Source: JBHIBR01 sp046759145 [NCBI: Nitrospinota bacterium] (lineage in GTDB: Bacteria; UBA8248). From it: a DNA stretch of 8,733 bases. Each line of letters begins with the position of its first letter. The stretch's first letter is position 1. The stretch covers positions 1 to 8,733 of the forward strand of contig JBHIBR010000050.1 in NCBI GenBank assembly GCA_046759145.1, given 5' to 3'. This document shows, one piece after another, positions 1,630 through 8,239 of the stretch. The notes beneath the pieces were generated by a model. The model was not told where the DNA came from. It did not search any database and saw only the letters and a list, made by a program, of their open reading frames with translations. A program made the position numbers and the translations under genes.

Positions 1630-1681
1630 CCTCTTAAGGGGTACCCCAGCGCGCAGGCGCGCTGGGGGCCCCTCTTAAGGG
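1630..1681. repeat. Palindromic mini-element flanked by 11-bp direct repeats (copy 1, nuoF/nuoG junction)
   Basis: A perfect 10-bp stem (CCCCAGCGCG at 1644-1653 with CGCGCTGGGG at 1658-1667, loop CAGG) sits next to a second small palindrome, GGGGTACCCC (1638-1647). The block is bracketed by identical 11-mers, CCTCTTAAGGG at 1630-1640 and 1671-1681, as if the target had been duplicated on insertion. The right copy contains the nuoF stop codon and the left copy contains the nuoG Shine-Dalgarno, so the insertion leaves both genes intact. The 29-bp core 1638-1666 matches copy 2 (7578-7606) at 26 of 29 positions. No T-tract follows on the minus strand, so it is not a classical terminator, although the RNA hairpin could still slow the polymerase or protect mRNA ends. 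Confidence 0.8.
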
Positions 1682-6411: not shown

Positions 6412-7518
6412 CTAGCCGATCTCCAGCCGAACGCAACCCTCCTCGTCCCAGCGGAAGCGCCGGGGCTTGCGCGCCTCGACGGCCCCGCGATGCTCGAGGA
6501 CGTAGGCGGCGATGAGCGGAAGGCCGATGGTCACATCCACATAGGCCGTGCCCAGCGCCCCCTCGTGCTCGTACTTCCCCCAGGAAACCGACTCCTTGAG
6601 GGTGCACCCCGAGAGGCCGCCCCATTTGGGGTCGTCGGTGGTGAGCTGGATGGCGTACTTGTGGGCGTGAATCGCGTGGCCCATGACCTCCAGCAGGGGC
6701 TGGGCCGACTGGATGTAGTTCTTGGGCACGCCCCCGCCCAGGTAGATGCCCCCCGTGGCGTGGGTGGCGAGATGGAGCCGGGCGAACTCCAGGTTGTCCC
6801 GGACCAGATCCAAGCGGAAGGAGCTCCCGGGGCGCTTCTGACCGTGGCGCGCGAGGGCCATGCCGAGGCCGCTGTCCACTATGGAGGGGGAAAAGAGGGG
6901 CTTGCCCAGCCGCGCCGCGGCCGCGACGAAGCACTCCTCATCCTCGAACGCCAGGCCGAGGCGCTCCAGGAACTCCCGCGAACTGTACGGGCGCTCCTCC
7001 AGGGCGGGGATGAACTCGTCCGCCAGGTCGTATGCGAGCTGGGCGAAGAGGTCATCGTCCACCAGGGTGTCGTATACCCGGTCCACGTCCATGATCTCGA
7101 GGTCGTAGTCGTCCGCCCCCGGCACATACCTGTAGTGCCGGTGGCCCCGGGCCTCGAAGATGTCGTGGTAGATGTTGGCGCCGGTGGAGACGACCACGTC
7201 CGCCAGGTTGTGGCGCAAGAGGTCGCAGATCACCCTGCGCATCCCCCCCGCGATGAGGGCGCCCGCCAGGCCCAGGTAGATGACCGCCTCGGGGTCCTCC
7301 ACCATTTTCAGGAAGATGCGGGCGCACTCCCCCAGGTTGCGGCTCTGGAAGGAGCCCTCACCGAAGGCGTGGACCAGCTCCCCCACGGTGCGGGTGCGGC
7401 TGAGGTCTATGTGCTCGACGGGGCGGTGGAAGAGGCACTGCTTGCGGGTGCGCTTCATCTCGGCCTTGTAGGCCGCTCGCTCATCCGAACTCATCCCGGA
7501 ACGGTGAACTCTCGGCAT
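6412..7518 (-). CDS. Deoxyhypusine synthase-like protein (probable polyamine aminobutyltransferase)
   Basis: Member of the deoxyhypusine synthase family, 368 residues, soluble. NAD-site and active-site motifs seen: IYLGLAGALIAGGM (about 79-92), VVVSTGANIYHDIFEA (about 107-122), FSPSIVDSGLG (about 209-219), YLGGGVPKNYIQSAQP (about 256-271), and ESVSWGK with K315 matching the lysine that forms the covalent enzyme-aminobutyl intermediate in human deoxyhypusine synthase. Human enzyme has KHHIAN where this has KNYIQS, a change typical of bacterial relatives. Bacteria lack eIF5A, so the acceptor is probably not a protein; bacterial members have been linked to homospermidine or related polyamine synthesis by transferring an aminobutyl group from spermidine or putrescine. 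The ATG at 7518 has GGGGAGG eight bases upstream; a second ATG at residue 9 is possible. It overlaps the extended 3' end of the Nudix gene by 28 nt. Family is certain, substrate is not. Confidence 0.9.
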   Translation of the reverse strand: MPRVHRSGMSSDERAAYKAEMKRTRKQCLFHRPVEHIDLSRTRTVGELVHAFGEGSFQSRNLGECARIFLKMVEDPEAVIYLGLAGALIAGGMRRVICDLLRHNLADVVVSTGANIYHDIFEARGHRHYRYVPGADDYDLEIMDVDRVYDTLVDDDLFAQLAYDLADEFIPALEERPYSSREFLERLGLAFEDEECFVAAAARLGKPLFSPSIVDSGLGMALARHGQKRPGSSFRLDLVRDNLEFARLHLATHATGGIYLGGGVPKNYIQSAQPLLEVMGHAIHAHKYAIQLTTDDPKWGGLSGCTLKESVSWGKYEHEGALGTAYVDVTIGLPLIAAYVLEHRGAVEARKPRRFRWDEEGCVRLEIG

Positions 7519-8018
7519 CCATAAACCCTCCCCGGGGCGGCGCTGAACCCGCCCCTAGCTTGAAGGACTCCACTCCCGGGGAACCCCAACGCGCAGGCGC
7601 GGTGGGCCTCCCGGATGACGTCAGCCGTGCCCTTTGTCATAGGCTGGTAGCCGTCGAGGTCTGAGAGAGCTACCCAGCGCGCCTCGCCGATGTCCCCCCC
7701 GGCTCGCAGCTCTCCCCCGGTCGGGCGGCAGGTGAAATCCACCAAGACGTAGTGATAACGGACCCGGCCCCACTCGTCGCGGTAGATGCGGTCGAGGACG
7801 GCGCAGCGCTCCACCACCTCGACACTGAGCCCCGTCTCCTCCCGCACCTCACGCCGGAGGGCCTCTTCGAGCCCCTCACCCAGCTCCACCACCCCGCCGG
7901 GGATGGACCATCTCCCCCGGCTCGGCTCCATCGCCCGGCGCACGAGGAGGACCCGATCGTCATCCACTATCACCGCCCCGACGCCCACAACGGGCTGCCG
8001 GGGATATTCACGGCCCAT
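7491..8018 (-). CDS. Nudix hydrolase (C-terminus altered by palindromic insertion)
   Basis: Hydrolase of nucleoside-diphosphate-type substrates. The 175-residue product starts MGREYPRQPVVGVGAVIV and has a complete Nudix box at 42-64 (G42, E48, R56-E57, E60-E61, G63), with W37 and the IPGGV lead-in before it. All metal-binding glutamates are present, so it should be active. The sequence resembles ADP-ribose pyrophosphatase or MutT-like enzymes, but substrate cannot be assigned. The ATG at 8018 was chosen: the earlier in-frame TTG at 8102 is the -35 box of the promoter, and GGGAG lies upstream of 8018. The domain ends near residue 137 (ADVIRE). The last 38 residues are encoded by a palindromic element and the frame-shifted sequence after it; without the element the protein would end a few residues later at a TAG (7555-7557). 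The present stop overlaps the next gene. Confidence 0.9.
   Translation of the reverse strand: MGREYPRQPVVGVGAVIVDDDRVLLVRRAMEPSRGRWSIPGGVVELGEGLEEALRREVREETGLSVEVVERCAVLDRIYRDEWGRVRYHYVLVDFTCRPTGGELRAGGDIGEARWVALSDLDGYQPMTKGTADVIREAHRACALGFPGSGVLQARGGFSAAPGRVYGCREFTVPG
7573..7614. repeat. Palindromic mini-element flanked by 7-bp direct repeats (copy 2, in Nudix gene)
   Basis: Near-perfect inverted repeat: CCCAACGCGC and GCGCGGTGGG pair with one mismatch around AG, next to GGGGAACCCC. CTCCCGG occurs at both ends (7573-7579 and 7608-7614). The 29-bp core 7578-7606 matches copy 1 (1638-1666) at 26 of 29 positions in the same orientation. The insert plus one direct repeat is 35 bp, not a multiple of three, so it changes the reading frame of the Nudix gene. 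Confidence 0.75.
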
Positions 8019-8138: not shown

Positions 8139-8192
8139 GGAGCGCCGGCGTCTCGCCGGCTTTTTGCGCTGCCAGCCAGAGGCCGGCGCTAC
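8139..8192. repeat. Composite GCCGGC intergenic repeat (two hairpins)
   Basis: Two half-elements face each other. The first is GCCGGC-GTCTC-GCCGGC (8144-8160); the second is GCCAGC-CAGAG-GCCGGC (8171-8187), with one mismatch. In addition the outer arms AGCGCCGGC (8141-8149) and GCCGGCGCT (8182-8190) pair perfectly. This architecture, two similar palindromes in opposite orientation, is that of REP-type extragenic repeats. It lies 37 bp upstream of the Nudix promoter and after the right-edge gene. It is different in sequence from the element at 1630-1681. Confidence 0.7.
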
Positions 8193-8239
8193 GGGGTAGG
8201 GGTCGGGGCGCGGGCATCTTCCCGGGATCGTTTGCCGCC

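Follow-up and report, generated by a model that had tools for sequence, protein, structure and literature searches.

A short GC-rich palindrome at two gene junctions of one contig probably gave a Nudix protein an unusually long tail

Known palindromic elements and the two copies in the window

Small mobile hairpins that enter genes are already known, and the locus described here adds a modest new example to them. REP sequences, or palindromic units, are short, imperfect and GC-rich palindromes near gene ends within operons, a description shared by the two elements of this study; they are multicopy, dispersed repeats associated with RAYT transposases. Among known elements, the Rickettsia palindromic element (RPE) found inside protein genes comes closest. 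In passages of PMC2229807, RPEs are described as Rickettsia-specific elements of 105-146 bp, fused in frame in 19 reading frames. The same passages characterize bacterial MITEs, e.g., Correia elements and RUP, as small and non-autonomous, with inverted repeats and target site duplications and a location between or inside genes, most MITEs being A+T-rich with a terminal TA (PMC2229807).

The window, i.e., the whole stretch of 8,733 nucleotides analyzed here (GC 70%), carries on its minus strand a nuoA-G operon, a deoxyhypusine-synthase-like gene and a Nudix gene. Two palindromic elements are located at gene junctions, E1 between nuoF and nuoG and E2 in the coding end of the Nudix gene (Table 1). 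Like the RPEs in the passages cited above (PMC2229807), they lie between as well as inside protein genes and add residues without destroying the protein; unlike RPEs, the element of the window measures only ~28-35 bp, belongs to a contig of 70% GC and goes along with an out-of-frame shift at the 3' end. With respect to MITEs, the size corresponds (below 200 bp without a protein of its own), 28-30 nt lying between the flanking repeats, and so does the inverted-repeat structure, E1 forming a strong and E2 an imperfect hairpin. Candidate target duplications are the direct repeats of 11 bp at E1 (0 of 8,370 control positions) and of 7 bp at E2 (4.5% of the controls). The A+T-rich character with a terminal TA is absent, the ends being GC-rich (E1 GGTACCCC...GGGGGCCCC, E2 GGAACCCC...GTGGGC), and, unlike Correia elements and RUP, the window element is far shorter and has flanking repeats of unequal length. 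Within limited text searches no published description of the element was found, and the papers containing the string CCCCAGCGCGC were unrelated by title.

Table 1. Features of the window (positions on the whole stretch) and plasmid loci with a hairpin of the same type
Feature	Position or locus	Strand	Remarks
CCTCTTAAGGG, flanking repeat of E1	1630..1640	.	contains AAGAGG ahead of nuoG
Palindromic element E1, nuoF/nuoG copy	1641..1670	.	strong hairpin
CCTCTTAAGGG, other flanking repeat of E1	1671..1681	.	contains nuoF stop TAA (1675-1677)
Deoxyhypusine-synthase-like gene, 368 aa	6412..7518	-	PF01916, E 1.5e-76; overlapped by Nudix tail
Nudix hydrolase gene, present reading	7491..8018	-	175 aa from ATG 8018; PF00293
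Nudix tail after E137	7494..7607	-	~12 codons from element and repeat, then 26 codons of lower GC3
Shine-Dalgarno-like GGGGAGGG	7526..7533	-	7 nt ahead of ATG 7518; read by eye
TAG ending the reading if insert and one repeat are absent	7555..7557	-	scripted joining of flanks
CTCCCGG, one flanking direct repeat of E2	7573..7579	.	
Palindromic element E2, Nudix copy	7580..7607	.	GGAACCCCAACGCGCAGGCGCGGTGGGC on + strand; main stem with one mismatch
CTCCCGG, other flanking direct repeat of E2	7608..7614	.	
Plasmid loci, hairpin before DUF736 or ArdC-like/zincin-like gene	L117, L118, L119, L130, L131, L132		
Further such plasmid loci (hairpin before DUF736 or ArdC-like/zincin-like gene)	L180, L181, L182, L183, L185, L186		

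The initial annotation of this stretch had proposed that the same palindrome occurs twice, and this was corroborated by the 24-nt cores, ACCCCAGCGCGCAGGCGCGCTGGG at 1643-1666 in E1 and ACCCCAACGCGCAGGCGCGGTGGG at 7583-7606 in E2, which are identical at 22 of 24 positions; across 300 dinucleotide shuffles of the window, the best match was 19 and 22 was never reached. Comparison over 33 nt revealed 27 identities (0/300 shuffles), while a 29-nt cut gave 23, reached by one of 300 shuffles. Judged by this sequence comparison, E1 and E2 are related and most likely copies of one element. None of the Rfam families matched in the window or in five related loci.

The two copies are preserved to a different degree. 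The E1 hairpin has a predicted energy of -33.6 kcal/mol, with z-scores of -5.76 and -5.37 on the two strands and no equally stable structure among 200 shuffles for each, and it is flanked by an 11-bp duplication, a repeat length that none of the 8,370 positions of the window outside the element neighborhoods attained (longest 10). The duplicated 11-mer CCTCTTAAGGG holds the TAA of nuoF as well as AAGAGG on the coding strand; the duplication thus left both genes their signals. The E2 hairpin is imperfect, decayed and only mildly more stable than shuffles, with -23.2 kcal/mol on the plus strand (z -1.25; 24 of 200 shuffles as good) and -25.9 kcal/mol on the minus strand (z -2.02; 6 of 200). Its CTCCCGG repeats, located as in the initial annotation, recur with a period of 35 and 28 nt in between. 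As flanking repeats of at least 7 bp, sought within 20 nt on either side of a 24-nt core, were reached at 4.5% of the same 8,370 positions, CTCCCGG alone is weak and only suggestive evidence of a target duplication.

Reading frame and tail of the Nudix gene

The ORF list puts the start of the Nudix gene at TTG 8102, corresponding to 203 aa; the homologues align from residues 1-3 of the 175-aa reading that starts at ATG 8018. The NUDIX domain (PF00293) was recognized by Pfam with an E-value of 1.6e-25 and 90.1 bits, compared with a curated cut-off of 21.1. The present reading runs 38 aa beyond E137, the last residue of ADVIRE, covers the GGGGAGGG of the deoxyhypusine-synthase-like ORF (start 7518) and overlaps the latter by 28 nt, exactly as annotated initially. 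Equally, the arithmetic of the proposed removal was reproduced: deletion of the insert plus one repeat (35 bp) and joining of the flanks by script resulted in an open reading of 142 aa whose last residues, DVIREWSPSS, precede a TAG. The G or C content at third codon positions amounts to 16/26 in the last 26 codons, while the domain has 114/137 and the next gene 339/368, and the low value of the tail fits former intergenic DNA. A single-sequence fold of low confidence (mean pLDDT 42.7) placed a helix at residues 129-143 and no structure beyond, and the suggestion of a protein innovation, made in the initial annotation, goes beyond the evidence. The folded Nudix domain is intact and the tail atypical; the palindromic repeat probably gave the protein its unusually long, non-conserved tail, which is probably neutral and has no known effect as things stand.

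To put this end into context, 297 Acidobacteriota genomes and 198 from the phylum of G008 (a MAG named Thermodesulfobacteriota) were screened for the Nudix domain. At E 1e-20, 47 and 64 of them matched, respectively, and reading the 30 best of each set yielded 60 homologues. Beyond the equivalent of E137, 59 of these proteins have 4-34 residues and one fusion (L083, counted among the 60 tails and excluded from the 59-row alignment) has 204, with a median of 12; the 38-aa tail of the window is longer than in 59 of the 60. Barring the fusion, the homologues end at residues 141-171 (median 149). Only three of the 60 stop at residues 137-143, the region in which the closest homologues had been expected to end.

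In the alignment of 59 homologues, position 138 is occupied by A (42 proteins), G (12), V (four) or S (one) and never by W, and position 137 mostly by R (28) or K (25) and never by E; F, L and W are commonest at residue 139, where the window has H139. E137 is common to both readings, which then diverge into A138, the first residue of the insert, in the present one and W138 in the reconstruction. With W138 in none and A or G in 54 of the 59 homologues, the exact ancestral end WSPSS put forward earlier is unsupported, the insert itself supplying the A138. Going by these sequence comparisons, an insertion may have taken the place of an earlier end, or the true boundaries of the repeat may lie elsewhere. 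An orthologue with an empty site, as called for in the initial annotation, was not found among the relatives searched, the best NuoD identity being 66%, to Acidobacteriota MAGs (NuoD query, 36 loci).

The extent of the overlap with the next gene depends on its start codon. If the gene started at the alternative in-frame ATG 7494, the overlap would shrink to 4 nt; the N-termini of two relatives (L037, L038) do not discriminate between ATG 7518 and ATG 7494. The idea that the Nudix stop inside ATGA at 7494 proves coupling was dropped, since a shifted frame entering ATGA stops regardless; it is also weakened by GGGGAGGG being well spaced from ATG 7518 and not from 7494. Next to its nuo operon the window carries this bacterial deoxyhypusine-synthase-like gene, for which the best relatives found are 42% and 38% identical and come from two MAGs. 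Searching the genome contigs with this gene yielded 26 pattern stretches and none confirmed as a relative. A conserved neighborhood of Nudix and deoxyhypusine-synthase genes was not seen either, with no Nudix match at E 1e-5 in loci L001-L055, of which the deoxyhypusine-synthase loci L037-L055 extend only ~1.5 kb past the match. Upstream of the Nudix gene, at 8140-8193, the window contains a further inverted repeat, AGCGCCGGCG...GCCGGCGCT, with a T-run inside, which we take to resemble dispersed repeats of other phyla.

Explanations for the extended reading

We favor, with a probability of roughly 60%, the reading that E1 and E2 are one short GC-rich mobile palindrome inserted twice and that the insertion of E2 extended the Nudix reading into the next gene. 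A GC-rich element of ~28-35 bp with the consensus core CCCCARCGCGCAGGCGCGSTGGG would have been inserted at two gene junctions, its movement possibly being helped by a transposase from elsewhere, as one example of a route. At nuoF/nuoG, the insertion would have duplicated the 11 bp in which the stop of nuoF and the ribosome-binding site of nuoG lie, damaging neither gene. At the Nudix gene, entry near the 3' end would have shifted the frame or eliminated the original end, the reading since then passing through the hairpin and former intergenic DNA to a stop just inside the next gene. Of the initial proposal, the insertion lengthening the gene is likely in view of the odd tail and the related palindromes, tempered by the weak 7-bp repeat and the imperfect E2 hairpin; the arrival of E2 by insertion, the order of events, the loss of an ancestral end and the neutrality of the tail we infer. 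Against insertion speaks A138, which as the first insert-coded residue fits the conserved A/G (54/59) as if a native end lay there. If true, a tiny mobile hairpin, much smaller than the RPEs and outside Rickettsia, would have altered a protein end and made two genes overlap.

The exact version of such an event, in which a gene formerly ending VIREWSPSS received a clean insertion of 35 bp along with a 7-bp target duplication, is conceivable but doubtful: the joined flanks do give an open reading with an early TAG, and its five residues past 137 fall within the homologue range of 4-34, but W138 occurs in 0/59 homologues, only 3/60 end within 6 residues of position 137, and 7-bp repeats are common in the DNA of the window. 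It is unlikely that the coding sequence of the Nudix gene always ran through this region; the palindrome, as a local GC-rich stretch, would then owe its resemblance to E1 to chance or convergence, and the long tail would be a trait of the species. Such an origin would agree with A138 at the conserved A/G, with the possible extension of the C-terminal helix by the present sequence in the low-confidence fold and with an E2 hairpin only mildly better than shuffles; it is at odds with the 22/24 identity to E1 (0/300 shuffles), with E137 where 53 of 59 homologues have R or K, with H139 where F, L and W prevail and with the lower GC3 of the tail.

Both copies are found at junctions of same-strand genes, E1 is very stable, and 11 of 14 regions opened on alphaproteobacterial plasmids have a hairpin of this type 73-107 nt ahead of a DUF736 or ArdC-like gene, all of which would suit hairpins kept by selection as junction RNA structures (REP-like mRNA stabilizers or attenuators) instead of a passive mobile repeat. 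With E2 decayed and the window as well as five related loci devoid of an Rfam match, this appears quite improbable; it is also compatible with insertion, as it concerns later events. By far the least credible is that the frameshift and long tail are artifacts of base calling or assembly in GC-rich metagenomic DNA: the 70% GC of the window would be conducive to such an error, but the frame is shifted by a whole palindrome plus repeat (35 bp), not by one base.

The core motif in genomes, plasmids and phages

Extension of the search to 297 Acidobacteriota genomes, allowing at most one mismatch, revealed four genomes with a total of 12 sites (six in G299, four in G137 and one each in G185 and G225), compared with one site for the reversed control. 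A looser search of G137 returned five sites (control 0), and the copies of this genome stand in differing flanks. The readable copies of G299 share near-identical flanks, the palindrome there thus being part of something larger; in this genome (L187, L191, L193, L195) and in G185 (L188), it was observed inside a dispersed repeat of greater length, which contains several nested hairpins and has near-identical flanks. Speaking against a general family, the motif was found in none of 296 Actinomycetota genomes, with three control sites. In the same direction, a narrower core with at most two mismatches matched in 1/198 and 4/94 genomes of two other phyla, the four matches in the latter representing one and the same non-palindromic sequence, with five control sites in that phylum.

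A flanking repeat of at least 7 bp was present at 7 of 23 motif sites including E1 and E2, in comparison to 3.4% of random positions in the same loci (binomial 7e-6), the sites not being independent, with five in the same phage gene and four on plasmids. Without E1 and E2, 5 of 21 sites were flanked in this way (binomial 6e-4), and 16 of the 23 lack a 7-bp flanking repeat. Six plasmid loci (L130, L181-L185) fell outside the pattern of the script and are excluded from the 23, among which the six copies of G299 are represented by L187 only.

BLAST with one plasmid motif retrieved 42 plasmid records, mostly from Rhizobiales; in one plasmid search, 24 of the 64 records lie outside the listed matches, Escherichia and Salmonella appearing in the genus tally and in none of the matches listed. 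We opened 14 plasmid regions and found the downstream gene to be DUF736 in nine and ArdC-like or zincin-like in three, the distance from hairpin to gene being 73-107 nt in 11 of these 12 and 188 nt in one (Table 1). The two other regions comprise a Streptomyces coding region and a site ahead of a recombinase gene. The plasmid motif seems to be of a different nature, or to have turned into something different, and looks like a conserved regulatory hairpin, possibly a single-strand promoter element. Single-strand promoters (Frpo) of leading-region genes are known and could be a model for its action, passages of PMC11541004 naming neither ArdC nor DUF736.

Scanning IMG/VR with the general core CCCCANCGCGCNNGCGCGNTGGGG resulted in nine matching viral stretches versus none for the letter-reversed control; two of them (L126 and L128) are identical in sequence and five lie in one phage gene. 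Collecting this gene from IMG/VR gave 42 loci (L138-L179), with the palindrome CCCCATCGCGC-NN-GCGCGATGGGG present in six and absent in 36, a frequency that is overstated, since the query was a filled copy and one of six search peptides spans the palindrome. In 31 empty copies, exactly 5 nt separate GGGGGAA from a GGCGGCGA-like sequence, while the filled copies have 41 (four copies), 35 or 44 nt, i.e., +36, +30 and +39, all in frame. A palindrome has here been either inserted into the coding sequence or lost from it, and the six filled copies may go back to one event. Filled and empty sites of this gene would allow testing the spread of ~36-bp hairpins between phages, plasmids and chromosomes.

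For the phage protein, Pfam gave no match and PHROG a weak one, to a family without a name (E 3e-4); our guess is a tail-assembly chaperone with programmed frameshifting. The palindrome was observed directly downstream of the GGGGGAA stretch, where the frame of the gene appears to change, and it could act there as a frameshift-stimulating hairpin. One 18-nt match (E 3) and three weak matches (E 2-7) to annotated phages were taken as chance.

Under a still broader reading, the core CCCCANCGCGCNNGCGCGNTGGGG would mark one mobile-hairpin family across phages, rhizobial conjugative plasmids and Acidobacteriota-like chromosomes, entering coding sequences repeatedly and sometimes being co-opted, as in the Nudix tail, the phage hairpin after GGGGGAA and the plasmid hairpin before DUF736 or ArdC genes. 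We hold this to be rather unlikely; a common descent of all motif occurrences is hypothetical. As a further observation, one viral contig (L134:7981-8045) has a tandem array of two or three of these palindromes (CAGCGCGCCGGCGCGCTGGGGTCGGCGCGCCAGCGCGCTGGGGTCAGCGCG).
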